Source: a virus. Taken from it: 21,545 nt of DNA. Positions 9,750 to 21,488 of this stretch are shown piece by piece. Below the pieces are notes generated by a model that saw nothing but the letters and a program-made list of their open reading frames with translations, was not told where the DNA came from and ran no database searches. Each line of letters starts with the position of its first letter. Position 1 is the first letter of the stretch. The translations under genes and the position numbers were made by a program. Location of the stretch: positions 1 to 21,545 of IMG/VR virus record IMGVR_UViG_3300036978_000507; one strand, 5' to 3'.

Positions 9750-10259
9750 ATGTCAAATCGCGATGCCTCACGAATCAAGATCAAGTGGTTTGAACAAGCC
9801 ACTGCACCAACTGGATCTGGTCCAGAAGTAGAAGCTGTCGATACCGCAAGCGATGTATACGCCTGCGTCACTGACGGTCCTACGTGGTCCGGCTTTACCC
9901 GTGGTGATGTTGAAACAACTTGCTCCAACTCGACTCTAGATCCATGGGGGAACTTGATTCGTTCCTTCCGTGGCGGTAAGATGGTCGACCTTGGAACGCT
10001 CACGTTTACTGTCGACTGGGACCCAGACGATACTAACGGTGGTCGTGAATACGCTGCATTCTTCGACGGTCGCTCAGGCGATCTTCTGGTGGAGTTCCCT
10101 CCATCAGCAGGAGAAACGACTGGTCCTATTCTGGTACTGACTGGTCACTGCAACAAGTTCACGCCAATGGGCACTGTACTGAGCGACGACAACGGTGCTC
10201 GAAGTACAGCAGAACTTGTATTCCGACTAAGCGGTATTGACGTTACTGCTCCAGTCTAA
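9750..10259 (+). CDS. Major tail tube protein
   Basis: This is the subunit of the tail tube. The 169-residue protein has the usual tail tube pattern: WSGFTRGDVETTCSNST, then SFRGGKMVDLGTLTFTVDWDPDD (compare 'g..d.G...f.l..dp' of the family), a SGDLLVEFPP strand, and a late GHCNKFTPMG with a final strand AELVFRLSGID. It lies just before the G/GT chaperone pair and the tape measure, as expected. AGGAG at 9739-9743 lies 6 bases before the ATG, giving strong translation. No Ig-like extra domain is visible. The 47 bases after it, up to 10307, are C-rich and hold no gene or clear signal. Confidence 0.85.
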   Translation: MSNRDASRIKIKWFEQATAPTGSGPEVEAVDTASDVYACVTDGPTWSGFTRGDVETTCSNSTLDPWGNLIRSFRGGKMVDLGTLTFTVDWDPDDTNGGREYAAFFDGRSGDLLVEFPPSAGETTGPILVLTGHCNKFTPMGTVLSDDNGARSTAELVFRLSGIDVTAPV

Positions 10260-10306
10260 TCCTGACCAACCCTCACACCCTTCACCCCTTTTCTTAGGAA
10301 CCCTTT

Positions 10307-10726
10307 ATGTTGCTTCAGCCTCTCAAGCGTGTACCTGTTGCTAATTCTACCACTGCAGAAATGGTTGAGCCGTCTGCTGGTACTGCCAACGCCTTCGTTA
10401 CCAAGCTGCGGGAACTCCCACAGGATGCCAACGAACGAGTGCTGGGTCATTACTTCTCTGGCCTGCGAGTACTGATCTGCCTGTACGATCACGGCAAACC
10501 ATTCCTTGCTCAGTTGGTTAATACTCTTCACTCAGAAAATGGTGAGGCATGGCCGCTGGAAGTTCAGGAAGGAGTCTCTATTCGTCAGACTCTGGACGAT
10601 CTGGATACGCCGTACCTGTGCCGTGTCATCGACTACTTCCTTGATGCTCTGAACGTCAATTCCATGGAAGAACTGAATACGATTATCCGTACTCAGTTGT
10701 GGGTGGAGAGAGACGTAAAAAACTAA
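10307..10726 (+). CDS. Tail assembly chaperone, gpG-like (0-frame product)
   Basis: This is the abundant short form of the tail chaperone pair that holds the tape measure during tail tube polymerisation. The 139-residue protein is largely helical, without transmembrane segments, and ends at a TAA placed directly after an A AAA AAC heptamer. Synteny (tail tube gene before, tape measure gene after, a second frame overlapping the end) is that of phage lambda G/GT. Some ribosomes slip at 10717-10723 to make a 254-residue fusion. The ribosome site TAGGAA lies about 7 bases before ATG 10307. Confidence 0.8.
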   Translation: MLLQPLKRVPVANSTTAEMVEPSAGTANAFVTKLRELPQDANERVLGHYFSGLRVLICLYDHGKPFLAQLVNTLHSENGEAWPLEVQEGVSIRQTLDDLDTPYLCRVIDYFLDALNVNSMEELNTIIRTQLWVERDVKN

Positions 10727-11070
10727 TTACTCCCGACGATCCACACTGGTTCGTATTGTTCCTGTGTAGCCGTTGGGGGAAGTCACTGACCGAGATTGAG
10801 TCTATGCCAATCTCAGAACTTAATGAGCATCGCTGGTTCCACGACAACTACAAGTGGGGTATGCATGACGACCTTCTTGCCATGCAGTTAACGCACAGCA
10901 TCAAGACCGTCAACCATAAATCATCTGTGCAACCATGGATGGTTAAGTCGTGGACCACGCAACGTGATTACACCTACCGTTTACAGAGGCTGATTACCAA
11001 ACCCGTTACTGCCATCAGGAGCGGGTTTTTCGCTGTAGTAAACGCGATTAAGGGTATGAAAAATGTCTAG
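10699..11070 (+). CDS. Tail assembly chaperone T part, made as a gpGT-like fusion by -1 frameshift
   Basis: This frame lies -1 to the G-like frame and overlaps it. The nominal GTG start at 10699 is probably not used: the conserved part begins after the slip site, adding about 115 residues (from base 10723) to the 139 of the G part. The sequence LTEIESMPISELNEHRWFHD followed by YKWGMHDDLLAMQLTHSI resembles the DUF4035/T-type chaperone segment ('eL.eW.ay....P.g..rdD...a'), with a long Trp/His-rich stretch. It ends overlapping the tape measure start by 8 bases. In lambda the T part binds the tail tube subunit while G coats the tape measure. Confidence 0.75.
   Translation: MGGERRKKLITPDDPHWFVLFLCSRWGKSLTEIESMPISELNEHRWFHDNYKWGMHDDLLAMQLTHSIKTVNHKSSVQPWMVKSWTTQRDYTYRLQRLITKPVTAIRSGFFAVVNAIKGMKNV
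10704..10726 (+). promoter_or_regulatory. Programmed -1 ribosomal frameshift signal (A AAA AAC)
   Basis: In the G frame the codons GTA AAA AAC TAA occupy 10715-10726, so AAAAAAC at 10717-10723 is a canonical X XXY YYZ slippery heptamer followed at once by a stop. A GGAGAG at 10704-10709 sits 7 bases upstream, an internal Shine-Dalgarno-like element of the type that stimulates -1 slippage in dnaX. Downstream, a short pairing ACTCCC (10729-10734) with GGG-A-AGT (about 10777-10783) is possible but weak. Confidence 0.85.
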
Positions 11071-13883: not shown

Positions 13884-15005
13884 ATGGGTCTGTACAAAAT
13901 ATGGGGCTTCCAGTTACCAGATCAATCCATGTCGGCAACATGGGGTTCTCAGAAGGTCACAGAGACCTGTCTCATCGAAATGAACTCCCCACTTGAGGAC
14001 ATAATCGACGTACAGGCTGCATTACCTGGGTACGACTCTGGTATCACTCCAGAACCTACGTTCACAATTGGGTTGTCCTACCATCCAGAACGCACTGACC
14101 TGATACTGAAAGAGGCACCTTCTGTAAAGGAGCACCCCACAAGCGGTAGGCCGTTCTGGGTAATTGAGTTAGTGTACGAGACTGCTCAATGGCTGGATAG
14201 AACGCTTCCTTATGAAAACCAAGGTATAGGAAACGTCGGTCGTAATAAGCGTATCGATACCAGTCCTACAGACCTCATCAAGTATCCATGGGAGGAACCA
14301 CCCACATGGAGCGGCTCCACCAAGCAGGTGCAGGCTACCGTGTATCAAGACTCAGCAGGAGCCAAGTTGGTACACGCCAACTACCTACCACTTACAGAAG
14401 GCATTGACGTTACCATCGAGCTTGAGGTGCACACATTCACTTGGAATGTCGAATACGATATGTTCACATTCAAAACTGACATCGCACCTTTTATAGGCAA
14501 GATAAACGACGCTGTTGTCTTCACAGGACTTCGCAAACACGTACTCCTAGAGACTTGCTCCGCTGTTGAGAACTATCGAACTCAGAATATCGGTGTCCGT
14601 AACGGGCAGGACGGCGCAGGTGCAGTTGCTACTCATCACTTCGTAACCATTACTGCCACGTTTGTTATAGACAGGCGTACGGCTGTGCAAGGATACTTCC
14701 GCGAAGCCAATCGTCGTGTGTCGATGCACACTATGCAGCTTGCCAACGCTGGGAACCCTATCACGCCAATTTGGGGATACGTACCTATTGACGTAAACGA
14801 CCGAGGAGACTTCGCACAATCTCCATGGCCGCTTGCTTCGCAGGCTTACTCGGATGCTGGCGGGTTCAATAGAGGCATCGGTTTTCCTTACGACGCACTA
14901 CCTACTGCTGTCCCAGAAACTGACTTCTGGACTATTGACCCTCTGTACCCTATAGAGGCTGACCTGACAGCATTCGTTGCATTTTATGGACTTACCATCC
15001 CATGA
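13884..15005 (+). CDS. Probable distal tail/baseplate protein, family not recognised
   Basis: I do not recognise the family. The gene directly follows the tape measure, where distal tail (Dit-like) or hub proteins are coded, and has a strong ribosome site (GGGAGG at 13873-13878, 5 bases before ATG). The 373-residue product is beta-rich and aromatic, with no signal peptide or membrane segment. A segment NVEYDMFTFKTDIAPFIG, then LRKHVLLETCSAVENY and HHFVTITATFVIDRR, looks like a beta-sandwich with a final strand, and might be the tail-ring part. It ends in an ATGA overlap with the next gene. The tail role is inferred from synteny; a minor tail protein is an alternative. Confidence 0.6.
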   Translation: MGLYKIWGFQLPDQSMSATWGSQKVTETCLIEMNSPLEDIIDVQAALPGYDSGITPEPTFTIGLSYHPERTDLILKEAPSVKEHPTSGRPFWVIELVYETAQWLDRTLPYENQGIGNVGRNKRIDTSPTDLIKYPWEEPPTWSGSTKQVQATVYQDSAGAKLVHANYLPLTEGIDVTIELEVHTFTWNVEYDMFTFKTDIAPFIGKINDAVVFTGLRKHVLLETCSAVENYRTQNIGVRNGQDGAGAVATHHFVTITATFVIDRRTAVQGYFREANRRVSMHTMQLANAGNPITPIWGYVPIDVNDRGDFAQSPWPLASQAYSDAGGFNRGIGFPYDALPTAVPETDFWTIDPLYPIEADLTAFVAFYGLTIP

Positions 15006-15655
15006 ACAACAACCTTGGCGTATTCACAGTTGGTGACGCACGGCATATCCATAAAGAGATATTTGGGACACGAATGTCCCAGCCTCCTATGGATAACACT
15101 CGTGACAAGACCATCCACAACCTGCTGTACTATGCGTTACTGTTGGAAGACTTAACTGCTGCAACCGATCCGTTAACAGGGTACACACAGGCACAGATCC
15201 GTGTCATCAGATATGTGCAGCCGGGTGATGGCGTTACTCTCAACATGGAAGAGTCTACTACTACGACAGGTATCGTACAAGTCACTAACAGGCTCACGTC
15301 ATTCTCTGCTTCAGCAGGGGATCTGTTACTGGTCATACGCAATGGTTCGGAATGGTCTCCTGTTAACAGTGGAGGGCGGCGACATCAAGTTATCTTCGAA
15401 ACTGATCTGGCAGCAGCGGTAAACACTAAGCGAGATCCCAGCACAGCGACCGCACGAATCCTTCGCAGAGAAACAAACGGCGATCTAACATCGACTTGCG
15501 ACTCAATCACTGTCATAAACAGATTTATGAACATTTCAATCGACTCCGGGACATACGCTAAAGTGGAATGGCTTGACGGGGAATGGCAGCCATACGCTGC
15601 TGATTGCCCGGGGGGTTCTTTAAGTATTGATGATAGCTGTTCGGAGAGCGTGTAA
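15002..15655 (+). CDS. Minor virion-type protein of unknown function
   Basis: The family is not recognised. The 217-residue protein starts in an ATGA overlap with the preceding tail gene, so it is likely co-translated. Two parts can be seen: an N-terminal polar region with helical LLYYALLLEDL (about 41-51), and from about residue 65 a beta-rich region (IRVIRYVQPGDGVTLNM, GDLLLVIRNGSEW, HQVIFETDLAAAV, YAKVEWLDGEWQPY). The tail GEWQPYAADCPGGSLS resembles the SPWTDCPSMFEP stretch of the next protein, suggesting a shared short module. It ends with DDSCSESV, again Cys/Ser-rich. A tail-tip or receptor-binding accessory is plausible but unproven. Confidence 0.5.
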   Translation: MNNNLGVFTVGDARHIHKEIFGTRMSQPPMDNTRDKTIHNLLYYALLLEDLTAATDPLTGYTQAQIRVIRYVQPGDGVTLNMEESTTTTGIVQVTNRLTSFSASAGDLLLVIRNGSEWSPVNSGGRRHQVIFETDLAAAVNTKRDPSTATARILRRETNGDLTSTCDSITVINRFMNISIDSGTYAKVEWLDGEWQPYAADCPGGSLSIDDSCSESV

Positions 15656-16346: not shown

Positions 16347-17429
16347 ATGAAACACTGTATTTACATGTTGCCGTTCTCTGAGCAGCGAAACAGATGCTTA
16401 AACAGTGCCGACTTGATGCACGATGGCACAGTGCCAAAGGCCGTGTGCGAGACGTGTGCTTACGCGACATCAGCCAGACCATCGCCATCTGACTTCTTCA
16501 GTCAAACAGCCTCGCTCCTTGTAACTAAGCACCGCACAGGCGAGCTGCGAGCAACCCCAAAACCATGCGGCGGATGCGGTGAAACGAAGCATCGAGCACC
16601 AGATGCCCCGGCGATGCAATTCGTCTGGCCGTATTGGGACGGCGGGGCGCAGGCGGATGAACTGCGATGGTCTATCAGATCAGTCGAGACGTTCTTTCAA
16701 GGTCGGGCAAAGATCACCATCATCGGTGACAAGCCCGACTGGTATCACGGGCATGTGATCCTGAAAAAGAGAGTCCCGCACACGAAGCCGAATCGAGCGT
16801 TTCGGGACATGCTCGGCAAGGTCTTTTATATCGCAACACACGCAGAAATCGATCCTGAGTGCGTGTGGATGATGGACGACATTTATTTCCTGCGACCGTT
16901 CACGCTGGACGACATCAAGACGCCCCGTGCGGAACCTTGGCGACAGGACGAGAGCAACAGTTGGCAGAAGCGAAAGACGGCGTCGATGGAAGCTCTTGCG
17001 GCTCGCGGGCTGACTCAGCACGACTACGCAACGCACCTGCCTCACTGGCTGGAAAAAGACAAGCTGCGGACCATGTTCGACGACTTCAATTTGCATGAAA
17101 ATACCATGCTTTGGGAAGTGCTCTACGGCAACGTTTATCGAGGAACGCCGCAACGAACGCGGCCATTCTTCGCACGCTTCCAGCATCAGGCCGAGAAGGA
17201 AACATTCCAGCGACTGACCGCACGCGCGACCGTCATCAACAACACTGAGCCAGCTTGGTGCGACGGCCTGCATGACTTTCTCGCGGAGATGCTCCCGACT
17301 CCTTCGAGCGTTGAGGCGGAACATGAGACGGCAAAGCCTGTTTATGTAATCAAAAAGAAAGGGGCCGTCACAGTAAAACGTCGGCCTCTGGAAACGCACA
17401 GAGACTACGTTGAAAAGCAAGTTCAATGA
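16347..17429 (+). CDS. Stealth-like sugar-phosphate transferase / glycosyltransferase
   Basis: The product probably transfers a sugar or sugar-phosphate from a nucleotide donor to a glycan. From residue 92 it reads FVWPYWDGG, then DELRWSIRSVE (104-114), ITIIGDKPDW (123-132) and MMDDIYFLRP (175-184). This is the arrangement of the central conserved region of Stealth capsule phosphotransferases (DELRYSLRS, then NDDMFF), although the FNS motif of that family is replaced by FRDMLGKVF. The first 90 residues are unlike that family and carry CxxC pairs at C34/C37 and C74/C77 plus C4 and C17, a possible zinc-binding domain. The ribosome site is weak. The stop overlaps the next gene by ATGA, so the two are probably coupled. 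Confidence 0.65.
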   Translation: MKHCIYMLPFSEQRNRCLNSADLMHDGTVPKAVCETCAYATSARPSPSDFFSQTASLLVTKHRTGELRATPKPCGGCGETKHRAPDAPAMQFVWPYWDGGAQADELRWSIRSVETFFQGRAKITIIGDKPDWYHGHVILKKRVPHTKPNRAFRDMLGKVFYIATHAEIDPECVWMMDDIYFLRPFTLDDIKTPRAEPWRQDESNSWQKRKTASMEALAARGLTQHDYATHLPHWLEKDKLRTMFDDFNLHENTMLWEVLYGNVYRGTPQRTRPFFARFQHQAEKETFQRLTARATVINNTEPAWCDGLHDFLAEMLPTPSSVEAEHETAKPVYVIKKKGAVTVKRRPLETHRDYVEKQVQ

Positions 17430-18832
17430 TTCCACACATCATGATCATTCAGTCAGCCTACACTGACCCGCGATTGTCTGAGCGACGCTTGGAGATATCG
17501 CGACACACAGCGATTCCATCACTGGCATTCCAGACCGTGAAGCCAGTCATTCACATTGCCGTAAATCCTGACGATCCATTTCTGCCTGAACGACTCGAAG
17601 CGTTTAGGTCTACCGGCTGCGAGGTGAAAGCACTTCACCGACCAAGCTGGAAACTCTACCGAGAGAACTGGGAGCTTCCAGAGGGCCGAAAGATCGTCAG
17701 CCGCATGGACGATGATGACGTAATCTGTAAAGAGTATTGCCAGCGGACACGCGAAGCTGCTCCGGAGTCAGGCGAATGGAATTTGATTTGGCCGAACGGG
17801 TACGTTTTTTGGCGTGAGACATGCTACCTGCTGCACCATCCGGGCATTCAATTTGTTACGCTCGTGACTGATCACGACAAAGATCCGCATCAGGAACAGC
17901 ACTGGGGATACCACAAGCGATGGCAGACGAAGGTTGTCTCCAATGCAGTTGGCTGGATCTGGGTCCGTCATGGTGATGCAGCCTCATCGACGCTGCCGAG
18001 ATATCGCAGGGTAAAACAGGGCGGCATTGACGCAAAGCGGATTCCTATCAATCTTAGGGCGATCCTGCGAGCCATCGCGGATTCTGGAACAGCGAGCGGA
18101 AGCTATAAGGAACATCGCAATCCGGCTTTGCTCAGCCATGTACTACAGCAAAACAAACGGCACGAACCAACAGCACCAGCAGGTCCGCGATTTCTTGTGG
18201 TTGTCCCGACACATAGGCTTTCGGTTGCTCAGGCGACAATTGACGAGCTACAGATGTCATTCACCTACCCAACAGATTTCCACATCTTGGACGGAACGCC
18301 CTCGAAATGTCACGCCCTCAATAAAGCCTTGGCTGAATTGCTTGATCCTGCGAAGCATGACATTTATGTAACGATAGACGACGACATTCTGCCGGGGGAA
18401 AACTGGCAGCACTTTATAGCTTGTGCCTTCGACCGCATCCCGAAGCTGGGGGCGTGTGGCGTCGATTACAGCGGCACCGAAGAAGGCCGGACGCTGATGG
18501 CCAACGCAATGAACTCACCCGTGCGACAGGTCCGAGATATCCAGTTCAGAGACTCGACCGGCTACATGAATCTCGCGGGCGGATGTTTCGCAATCAGGCC
18601 CGCACTAGCCAAAGAGATTGGGCCGTATCCGTTTGCAGACGATGGCAGGCAATACCATGCAGACGAAGACGGCTGGCGATCGCATCAAGTCACGCGGCGC
18701 AGATGGCAGGTCGGCTACGTCACCAATCCCAATGAGTCCGTCAGGATGATCACGCACCAGAACACAGAACAGTATGTAGAGACAAAGGCTGCCGATGTCG
18801 CAGCGTGGCAAGCAAATCCGATCTGGCCCTAA
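17426..18832 (+). CDS. Double glycosyltransferase: rhamnosyltransferase-like plus GT2-like domains
   Basis: Two GT-A-type domains appear fused. The first (about residues 1-200) has IHIAVNPDDPFLPERLEAF and the acidic SRMDDDD (92-98), the pattern of putative rhamnosyltransferases (Pfam Rhamno_transf family). The second (about 255-468) begins RFLVVVPTHR, has ILDG, TIDDD (316-320) as the DxD metal site, then GGCFAIR (385-391) and HADEDGW (411-417) where a GT2-type acceptor-site acidic residue is expected. Both domains keep an acidic motif, so both may be active, which would add two sugars in one protein. The gene is GC-rich compared with the tail genes. Which sugars or acceptors are used cannot be read from sequence. 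Confidence 0.75.
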   Translation: MIPHIMIIQSAYTDPRLSERRLEISRHTAIPSLAFQTVKPVIHIAVNPDDPFLPERLEAFRSTGCEVKALHRPSWKLYRENWELPEGRKIVSRMDDDDVICKEYCQRTREAAPESGEWNLIWPNGYVFWRETCYLLHHPGIQFVTLVTDHDKDPHQEQHWGYHKRWQTKVVSNAVGWIWVRHGDAASSTLPRYRRVKQGGIDAKRIPINLRAILRAIADSGTASGSYKEHRNPALLSHVLQQNKRHEPTAPAGPRFLVVVPTHRLSVAQATIDELQMSFTYPTDFHILDGTPSKCHALNKALAELLDPAKHDIYVTIDDDILPGENWQHFIACAFDRIPKLGACGVDYSGTEEGRTLMANAMNSPVRQVRDIQFRDSTGYMNLAGGCFAIRPALAKEIGPYPFADDGRQYHADEDGWRSHQVTRRRWQVGYVTNPNESVRMITHQNTEQYVETKAADVAAWQANPIWP

Positions 18833-18849
18833 ACCTAAAGGAATAACAC

Positions 18850-19257
18850 ATGGCAGTCCTGACAATCACCGCAGCGAATGTTGTGCCCGGAACGGGAACC
18901 AAAACGAAAAGCGGCACCGCAGGTGCAGCAATCACGCAAGGGCAGCCGGTCTACCTCGACGCGACCGCCATAACGCTCTTTCCTGCTGATGCTGATGTGC
19001 TCGCATCTGTTGCGGTTGTCGGAGTCGCACTCAACGCCGCGTCGGCAGGTCAGCCAGTCACCTACCAGATTTCCGGGCCCATCACGATCGGGACCACGGT
19101 TGTGGTTGGTACAGCCTACTACGCATCGACGACCGCTGGCGGGATTTGCCTTGAGTCAGATTTAGCGTCTGGGGACTTCGCCACGTTTCTGGGCTTCGCG
19201 ACATCGGCCACGGTGATCACGCTCGACATCAAAGCGGCTGGCGTGGCAAAGGCATAG
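18850..19257 (+). CDS. Small Ala/Thr/Gly-rich virion-like protein (DUF2190/cement-like)
   Basis: The 135-residue product has the pattern ITQGQPVYLDATA...ADVLASVAVVGVALNAASAGQPVTYQ...IGTTVVVGTAYYAS, followed by ATSATVITLDIKAAG. It is a beta-rich form seen in many small phage proteins often annotated as capsid cement or hypothetical. No catalytic residues are apparent. A good ribosome site (AAAGGA at 18837-18842) gives 7 bases to the ATG. It is unusual in standing between two glycosyltransferase genes, far from the capsid gene. It may be a surface protein and even the protein that the neighbouring enzymes decorate; that is speculation. Confidence 0.55.
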   Translation: MAVLTITAANVVPGTGTKTKSGTAGAAITQGQPVYLDATAITLFPADADVLASVAVVGVALNAASAGQPVTYQISGPITIGTTVVVGTAYYASTTAGGICLESDLASGDFATFLGFATSATVITLDIKAAGVAKA

Positions 19258-19304
19258 AGAACACTGAAAGCATAGCTACATTTCACACCCTGTGGAGTCC
19301 CCCA

Positions 19305-20243
19305 ATGCCCGCTGTAGTCCCCGCCGAGCACGTAGTTGGTTGCGTACACGACGGTAAGGTCGAAGAGTTCAAGACCCTGCTGGAAGAACGTGGTGTGACC
19401 AAATGGAAGTTCGGTAACGTCGATCCCAACCATTCACGCAGAGTCATCGACCTATCTGGTTCTCCAGAATCTTTGATCGAGGTACTGAAGATTGTCAACG
19501 ACGGTTACGAACGCCCACAATACGAGACTCCATACATCCCCGGATCATGGCAGTACGCCGTGACATCTGTGCTGGCACGTCTGGATAATACTCTTCCAGA
19601 AACTATTGCGTCCTTAGCTTCCAGTGGGTTTGATACTCCCATCATCTCCATTGACGGCCCAGACAATCCTGTGTGGCACACCAAGCTGAGTGGAAACTTC
19701 ATCTTCCGTGGAGAGAACATCCGGTCCTACGCTCACTGGTACCTGACGCTGCAGGAACTGTACTTCAGGAATCCGTACGCTCAGTACTACGCCATCTTCC
19801 AAGATGACTTCGTCTGCGTACCGAATCTGAAGGCGTATTTGGAATCTTGCGAATATCCTGAAAAAGGATACTGGAACCTCTTCACATTCATGGAGAATGA
19901 TGTTATGGTTTCGCAAGTCAGCCAAAAGGGCTGGATGCCAGCAGCAAGGGCAGTACAAGGCCACCAGCTTGGTCGAGGTGCAGTTGCTCTGGTCTTCAGT
20001 CAGGAAGCTGTCATCAAATTGTTGTCCAGTCGATACATGCAGACCAGGATCATGGATGCCGTCAAAGGTCACAGATCAATTGACGGTGCTGTGGTTTCTG
20101 CCATGCACTTGGAAGGCTGGACAGAATACGTCCACAATCCTTCTCTCGTCCAGCACACAGGTGAAGTCTCTTCAATGGGGAACCGAAAGCACCCCATCAG
20201 CAAATGTTACATCGACGGTTATGATCCCTTAGCAATTCCATAG
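19305..20243 (+). CDS. Glycosyltransferase, GT-A type
   Basis: This is a predicted sugar transferase of 312 residues. A leading domain (about 1-75) is not recognised. From about residue 84 it reads AVTSVLARLDNTLPETIASL, then TPIISIDGPDN and, after a helix, YYAIFQDDFVCVPNLKAYLE (161-180), where QDD is the likely DxD metal/nucleotide-sugar site. Near the end VQHTGEVSSMGNRKH resembles the His/Ser/Gly segment ('QH.G..SS') common in GT-A enzymes of this sort. Codon style is back to that of the tail genes. The site TGGAG at 19292-19296 precedes the ATG. It was probably in the late operon before the GC-rich genes arrived. Confidence 0.75.
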   Translation: MPAVVPAEHVVGCVHDGKVEEFKTLLEERGVTKWKFGNVDPNHSRRVIDLSGSPESLIEVLKIVNDGYERPQYETPYIPGSWQYAVTSVLARLDNTLPETIASLASSGFDTPIISIDGPDNPVWHTKLSGNFIFRGENIRSYAHWYLTLQELYFRNPYAQYYAIFQDDFVCVPNLKAYLESCEYPEKGYWNLFTFMENDVMVSQVSQKGWMPAARAVQGHQLGRGAVALVFSQEAVIKLLSSRYMQTRIMDAVKGHRSIDGAVVSAMHLEGWTEYVHNPSLVQHTGEVSSMGNRKHPISKCYIDGYDPLAIP

Positions 20244-20252
20244 GACATCCCC

Positions 20253-21488
20253 ATGTCAGCGTACACCACTCGCGACACATGCCGTATTTGCGGCTGTGCC
20301 GACCTGCAACCCGTATACAATTTCGGTAAGCAGTACATCAGTAATTTCGTAGACCCCGGTCAGGCATACGACAGCGAGCCATGCCCGATTGAGTTGGTCT
20401 CCTGCCCTAACTGCACGCTGGTGCAGAATCCACACACAGCACCACAGGAACTCCTCTACAGTGGGTTCTACTGGTACCGCTCTGGCGTTACTGCCACAAT
20501 GCGTGAAGCCTTGGCTGATGTGGTCCGCGATGCTATGTCTCAGGTAGACCTCCAGCCCATGGATGTCGTACTGGACATCGGCTCGAACGATGGGACGCTC
20601 CTTGGCTTCTACCCAGACAATGTGGTTCGCGTTGGTGTAGAACCAGCTAAGAACCTAGCCTCTGAACCACAGGAGCGAGTGGACCTGTTGATCAATGACT
20701 TCTGGTCAGAGGAAGCCTACACTAAGCATCTGGGTGATGACAAGGCTACCATCATTACTGCCTGTGGTATGTTCTACGACCTAGACAATCCTAACCCGTT
20801 CATATCAGCCGTACAGATGACTCTGCATCCAGAGGGCATCTTCATCGCACAGCTAATGTGCCTGAAGAACATGATCGCCTGCAATGACATCGGCAACATG
20901 GCTCACGAGCATCTGGAGTTCTACACTCTCAGAAGTCTTGATGTCTTGCTGTCAGAACATGGTCTGGTCATTGCCGATATTACAACCAACAATGTCAATG
21001 GTGAGTCTTACCGTCTGTCCATCCGCCACGAGACTTGGGAAGGTCAGACAGAGGAAGCTGCACGACGTGTACTCGATGCCTTCGCTGCAGAAGCCACCAT
21101 CATGGACGACCTAACAGCATTCATCAGACGTATGGAAGACAACCGTGATGAAGTCTATGACGCTGTTCAGGATGCTGTCTCTGATGGTAAGGTAGTCTGC
21201 GTGTACGGTGCCTCTACCAAAGGTAACTTCCTGCTACAGTGGTACGGACTGGACGATGAACTGATCAGATTCGCTGCTGACAAGTCACCTGAGAAGTGGG
21301 CCAAAGTCACAGCAGGTACCGACATTAAGATCTACGCTGAGGCAGTCGTACGTCAGCAACGCCCAGACTTCTTCCTAGTTCTTCCTTATGCTTTCTTACC
21401 AGAATTTATTGAACGGGAAAAGGATGAACGATGGCGTAAAGCTGGTGGCAAGTTTATCGTACCCCTGCCTGAATTGAGGATCGTATAA
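20253..21488 (+). CDS. Sugar C-methyltransferase (zinc-binding, SAM-dependent)
   Basis: The 411-residue product has the three-part architecture of C-methyltransferases that act on nucleotide-linked keto-sugars (TylC3/EvaC type). An N-terminal zinc-binding part has CRIC (C10, C13) and CPNC (C51, C54). The central SAM domain has DIGSNDGTLL (108-117), followed by a helical part with AHEHLEFYTLRS. The C-terminal part has VYGASTKGNFLLQWYG, FAADKSPEKW and a final FIVPLPELRI (compare the family's 'YGAsgrGNtLLny', 'vDkNp.K' and 'Ggkfi.PlP'). It would use SAM to methylate a 4-keto-deoxysugar. The next gene makes such a keto-sugar, which supports this. AGGA at 20242-20245 is its ribosome site. Confidence 0.88.
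   Translation: MSAYTTRDTCRICGCADLQPVYNFGKQYISNFVDPGQAYDSEPCPIELVSCPNCTLVQNPHTAPQELLYSGFYWYRSGVTATMREALADVVRDAMSQVDLQPMDVVLDIGSNDGTLLGFYPDNVVRVGVEPAKNLASEPQERVDLLINDFWSEEAYTKHLGDDKATIITACGMFYDLDNPNPFISAVQMTLHPEGIFIAQLMCLKNMIACNDIGNMAHEHLEFYTLRSLDVLLSEHGLVIADITTNNVNGESYRLSIRHETWEGQTEEAARRVLDAFAAEATIMDDLTAFIRRMEDNRDEVYDAVQDAVSDGKVVCVYGASTKGNFLLQWYGLDDELIRFAADKSPEKWAKVTAGTDIKIYAEAVVRQQRPDFFLVLPYAFLPEFIEREKDERWRKAGGKFIVPLPELRIV

Follow-up and report, generated by a model that had tools for sequence, protein, structure and literature searches.

The question raised by this locus is whether two overlapping ORFs, here called G and T, are separate genes or a single gene read in two frames by the ribosome. 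They lie in a viral DNA of 21,545 nucleotides (IMG/VR record IMGVR_UViG_3300036978_000507, positions 1 to 21,545; one strand), which is referred to below as the window. Mechanical ORF calling reports them as two separate ORFs, as the original prediction had said of automatic annotation. That prediction held that a −1 frameshift joins tail chaperone G to T and that an internal Shine–Dalgarno sequence of the dnaX type accompanies the shift site. From the comparisons described here, G and T are very probably (at about 95%) connected by programmed −1 frameshifting of the ribosome, of the type known from lambda G/GT, with an RNA stem as its likely stimulator. The coordinates of the features are collected in Table 1.

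Table 1. Features of the G–T region and the adjoining long ORF (window coordinates)
Feature	Position	Strand	Basis
G, tail assembly chaperone (predicted), 139 aa, 0-frame product	10307..10726	+	ATG start; fold like HK97 tail assembly chaperone
GGAGAG, Shine–Dalgarno-like, at most a minor stimulator	10705..10710	+	weak against null; not generally conserved
Slippery heptamer A_AAA_AAC, in G phase	10717..10723	+	sequence; kept in 45/45 relatives
G stop TAA, immediately 3′ of heptamer	10724..10726	+	sequence
T, read in the −1 frame, adding 115 residues for a predicted 254-residue G–T fusion	10723..11070	+	frame translation
3′ stem-loop, arms 10730–10738 and 10771–10779, likely −1 stimulator	10730..10779	+	folding, covariation, codon null
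13-position RNA hairpin inside T, upstream of tape measure start	10999..11028	+	covariation, codon null
Candidate tape measure protein, 939 aa	11063..13882	+	position and size; start overlaps T end by 8 nt

The slippery heptamer and its genomic setting

Upstream of G, the window encodes terminase, portal and capsid proteins (Pfam matches) as well as connector and neck proteins (PHROGs matches). The order at the locus is connector, (tail), G, T and the 939-aa ORF. The two overlapping ORFs thus follow the tail tube genes and precede the tape measure gene, and their order and sizes fit a G/GT pair of the lambda type; the tube and tape measure genes were assigned from position and size only, and the 939-aa candidate had no family match in PHROGs or Pfam. 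It may be noted that four ORFs of 360, 468, 312 and 411 aa follow the tail genes (16347–21488). They do not resemble tail proteins and may encode sugar- or methyl-transferases.

G ends in GTA AAA AAC TAA, and the G frame divides the heptamer AAAAAAC as A AAA AAC. Beginning 78 nt upstream of this point, the −1 frame stays open as far as the stop at 11068–11070; its translation from C10723 begins LITPDDPHWFVLF... and adds 115 residues to the 139 of G. Hence the canonical X XXY YYZ phase of the heptamer, the stop directly behind it, and the location of T in the −1 frame with deduced products of 139 and 254 residues, all of which had been predicted, were confirmed by the letters and their translation.

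The bare 7-mer AAAAAAC is common, occurring twice in the window where 1.65 occurrences are expected. When the phase was considered, only five XXXYYYZ sites were found among the 7066 codons of the window's likely genes, and the one at the end of G is the only one that abuts a stop before an open −1 frame. Another candidate, at 15607–15616 (CCC_GGG_G and G_GGG_GGT, both in phase), was rejected as a frameshift site since its −1 frame meets stops. It lies 39–42 nt before the end of the ORF at 15002–15655, and a neighbouring ORF is in the −1 frame.

To compare the fold of G, PDB candidates from Foldseek were realigned by VIA-align 2. The predicted model of G (pLDDT 90) matched best the HK97 tail assembly chaperone 2ob9 (Z 6.4) and YqbN 3klu (Z 6.2), the next match having a Z of 2.6; sequence identities were 11% and 6%, respectively, and these Z values are below the level that proves a relationship. 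Weak matches of G in BFVD include several viral tail assembly chaperones. The model is therefore supportive of a tail assembly chaperone fold: its moderate Z agrees with the gene order and does not by itself prove membership of the family. The model of T was of low confidence (pLDDT 68), and a fold search with it was not interpretable. At the sequence level, T gave marginal matches to phrog_337 'tail protein' (E 0.006, 7 of 16 members), to PF06223 (E 0.07, 4 of 16 members) and, by hhalign, to lambda T (E 0.11). Neither G nor T had a confident match to a named family in PHROGs or Pfam, and the PDB sequence search gave no relevant match.

Conservation of the shift site among relatives

When IMG/VR was searched with T and with T alignments, 45 related contigs were obtained; a search with the G alignment returned contigs from the same set. 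No relative of G or T was found among annotated phages (best tblastn E 0.07) or among bacterial and archaeal genome contigs. Two of the 45 (L016 and L017) are almost the same as the window, and several others nearly duplicate one another; the set does not amount to 45 independent lineages, about 16 being clearly distinct.

An in-phase slippery heptamer was present at the homologous place in all 45 contigs, as A_AAA_AAC in 42 and as G_GGA_AAC in three (L043, L044 and L065). Seven contigs (L060–L066) were found after this rule had been drawn, and all seven obey it. In a tree of poor resolution, the two G_GGA_AAC lineages tested did not group together as one clade. Since three relatives carry G_GGA_AAC, the slippage rule has been kept while the letters changed, and the family is a naturally occurring collection of shift sites that differ in spelling and agree in logic. 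Conservation of this kind across the sequences is decisive in rejecting a chance heptamer. In the most distant relative, L066 (2441–2600), the in-phase A_AAA_AAC is kept and the G stop lies 31 nt further on.

The same comparison bears on other explanations of the two frames. A homopolymer run is an error-prone context, and the frame change could in principle be a sequencing error or mark a single broken gene; the relatives refute this, as 46 records, drawn from many metagenomes and in some cases lacking a homopolymer, show the same frame change at this site, and the probability left to it is negligible. Alternatively, T might be an independent gene, unfused to G, with its own start at GTG 10699 or at some other internal codon. 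A mechanical ORF with that GTG start does exist, and many relatives have some ATG, GTG or TTG 21–27 nt upstream of T. The GTG, however, is not preceded by a Shine–Dalgarno sequence, and every contig retains the heptamer in phase while the neighbouring codons vary. Moreover, no ATG, GTG or TTG precedes the conserved part of the T frame in L018, L026, L035, L036, L039, L040, L044, L046 and L061–L064; in these lineages, T must be reached by a shift. An independent T is therefore very improbable.

Transcriptional slippage on the A run was also considered; mixed mRNAs would then arise, and T would be reached by normal translation. The run of six A residues in most members would suit such a process, but the three relatives with GGGAAAC have no run longer than three, and bacterial cases have been described for runs of about nine (PMC5009743). 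An in-phase XXXYYYZ together with a 3′ stem is, moreover, a mark of ribosomal slippage. We regard the transcriptional route as highly unlikely, and favour frameshifting by the ribosome.

Candidate stimulators and the proposed mechanism

The 100 nt 3′ of the heptamer folded better than shuffled sequences (z −2.0), with a stem of 9 bp that is a 10-bp helix in most relatives and starts 6–7 nt after the heptamer. This is the standard place for the stimulator stem of a −1 shift. In the alignment, 93% of the cells of the 10-bp helix were paired in the first set of sequences and 90% when later sequences were included, compared with 30–61% when the partner was slid by 1–3 columns. One A–U pair is changed to G–C on both sides in five sequences, and RNAalifold independently recovered the same helix.

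As both arms of the stem are coding, synonymous codons were reshuffled to obtain a null. For 22 sequences, 205 pairs were observed against 148 ± 6 (maximum 169), and the summed energy was −512 against −328 ± 14. The exact figures overstate independence because the sequences are related, and the effect is still large. For the window alone the excess was modest (P 0.05 for energy, 0.12 for pairs). A good stem is missing in L066 (in this register) and, in part, in L040 and L043.

The motif GGAGAG upstream of the heptamer behaved differently. It is present as predicted, at a gap of 6 bases rather than 7. Immediately 5′ of the heptamer, the strongest pairing with the 16S tail was −6.4 kcal/mol in the window and also in L042, a value equalled by 5% of the in-phase sites in the window's genes and by 11% of the sites within G and T. 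The Shine–Dalgarno was absent or weak in L040, L041, L049 and L051. A codon-preserving test on 11 lineages gave P values of 0.04 to 1.0 for single lineages and a summed P of about 0.009. This weak joint excess points to a possible slight tendency toward Shine–Dalgarno-like purine runs, and it is, with the pairing energy, what would favour GGAGAG as the main, dnaX-like stimulator of the shift. Given the ordinary sites that pair as well, the lineages that lack the motif, the short spacing and the far better conservation of the 3′ stem, we consider such a role improbable. Upstream pairing would stimulate the shift slightly at most; the better candidate is likely the 3′ stem.

The frameshift joining G and T as originally predicted thus stands, upheld by phase, position, gene order, conservation and the chaperone-like fold of G. 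The dnaX-like Shine–Dalgarno finds little support, and the conserved 3′ stem-loop had been missed. E. coli dnaX has the heptamer A_AAA_AAG with a Shine–Dalgarno about 10 nt upstream. The present locus shares with it a heptamer based on six A residues and, a few nt further 3′, a stem-loop, but its site ends in AAC and not AAG, and a Shine–Dalgarno about 10 nt upstream is not a conserved feature. Shifting would also give a longer product here, whereas in dnaX it occurs at about 50% and yields the shorter one (PMC5009743).

We propose that most ribosomes would terminate at the TAA and release the 139-residue chaperone G. A minority would slip at A_AAA_AAC, where tRNA-Lys would occupy the P site and tRNA-Asn the A site; once the two tRNAs had paired anew with AAA AAA, translation would proceed in the −1 frame and yield the 254-residue G–T fusion. 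Slippage would likely be stimulated by the stem-loop of 9–10 bp that starts 6–7 nt downstream. In E. coli, which may not be the host, A_AAA_AAC is much less shift-prone than A_AAA_AAG (PMC5009743). A weak shift site combined with a 3′ stem would therefore be a reasonable design for a modest rate. In lambda, G and GT are made at about 30:1 and both bind the tape measure protein, the major tail protein being recruited by T (PMC5009743); by analogy, G and the fusion would coat the tape measure protein here, and the T part would recruit the major tail protein.

The lambda G/GT frameshift and its conserved counterparts are the subject of Xu, Hendrix and Duda (2004), as cited in PMC5009743, and the frameshift predicted here is itself of that already known kind. 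Shared with lambda are the location just before the tape measure gene, the −1 direction, the heptamer near the end of the upstream ORF and the size of G (139 aa compared with 140 for lambda G). Unlike in lambda, where the shift site is G_GGA_AAG, the heptamer is A_AAA_AAC or G_GGA_AAC and the stop follows it immediately; nor do G and T have clear sequence similarity to those of lambda. The same two heptamers occur in the g–t frameshifts of the haloarchaeal viruses HCTV-1 and HCTV-2 (PMC5009743), whose hosts are archaea; the likeness noted here is one of heptamers. If the present reading is right, the users of G/GT frameshifting gain an uncharacterised phage family that is unnamed in PHROGs and Pfam. 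Some tailed-phage shifts appear to work without stimulators (PMC5009743), whereas conservation of the 3′ stem here suggests that stimulation does occur in some tail-chaperone frameshifts, a point relevant to the way in which the G:GT ratio is set by phages.

A second RNA hairpin near the end of T

Towards the T stop, the codons used for conserved residues hardly vary (AAA CCC ... GGG TTT), because these codons form a hairpin (AAACCCG...CGGGTTT) of 13 paired positions with a 4-nt loop. For 19 distinct sequences, 233 pairs were observed against 147 ± 6 under synonymous reshuffling. Among 21 distinct aligned sequences, 97% of cells pair, compared with 33–55% when slid, and there are 20 two-sided changes at four pairs. 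The hairpin is the most stable 34-nt window in many loci, with a mean of −17.5 kcal/mol against about −4.7 along T. It is a much stronger RNA element than the 3′ stem.

The hairpin ends 32–38 nt before the tape measure start in most lineages (54 in L028, and an uncertain 13 in L065), and a Shine–Dalgarno-like stretch lies between the two. When IMG/VR was scanned with the pattern of the hairpin, 42 matches were obtained, of which 35 were contigs of this phage family; in the other seven, the hairpin is not spanned by a long ORF and resembles an intergenic terminator. A classic intrinsic terminator is nevertheless not favoured in the phage family, as many lineages have an interrupted U tract (TTTATGG, TTTGAGG). 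Nor is a DNA element favoured, since G–U pairs in the mRNA sense are common (21) and A–C mismatches, which would be G–U on the other strand, are few (4). Rfam gave nothing at the gathering score, its sole mention being a sub-threshold Trp_leader match, and no described hairpin before a tape measure gene was found among the literature titles and abstracts listed. A covarying hairpin at this place, matching no catalogued RNA family, is the newest part of these findings.

The hairpin may control expression of the tape measure gene, in our view its most likely role, in a stretch of RNA that few ribosomes would cross. Tentatively, the T region could then carry two selected RNA elements, the 3′ stem setting the frameshift rate and the 13-bp hairpin setting tape measure expression, by insulating the ribosome-binding site, attenuating transcription or protecting the mRNA; we hold this two-element arrangement to be possible, at somewhat less than even odds. 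If true, the proportions in which G, GT and tape measure protein are made from one transcript would be fixed.

The overlap between the stop of T and the tape measure start (11063–11070) is 8 nt in the window, as it is in lambda (T 10115–10549, H from 10542), and takes the form ATGA in many relatives. Such an overlap would permit translational coupling of the tape measure protein to frameshifted ribosomes.
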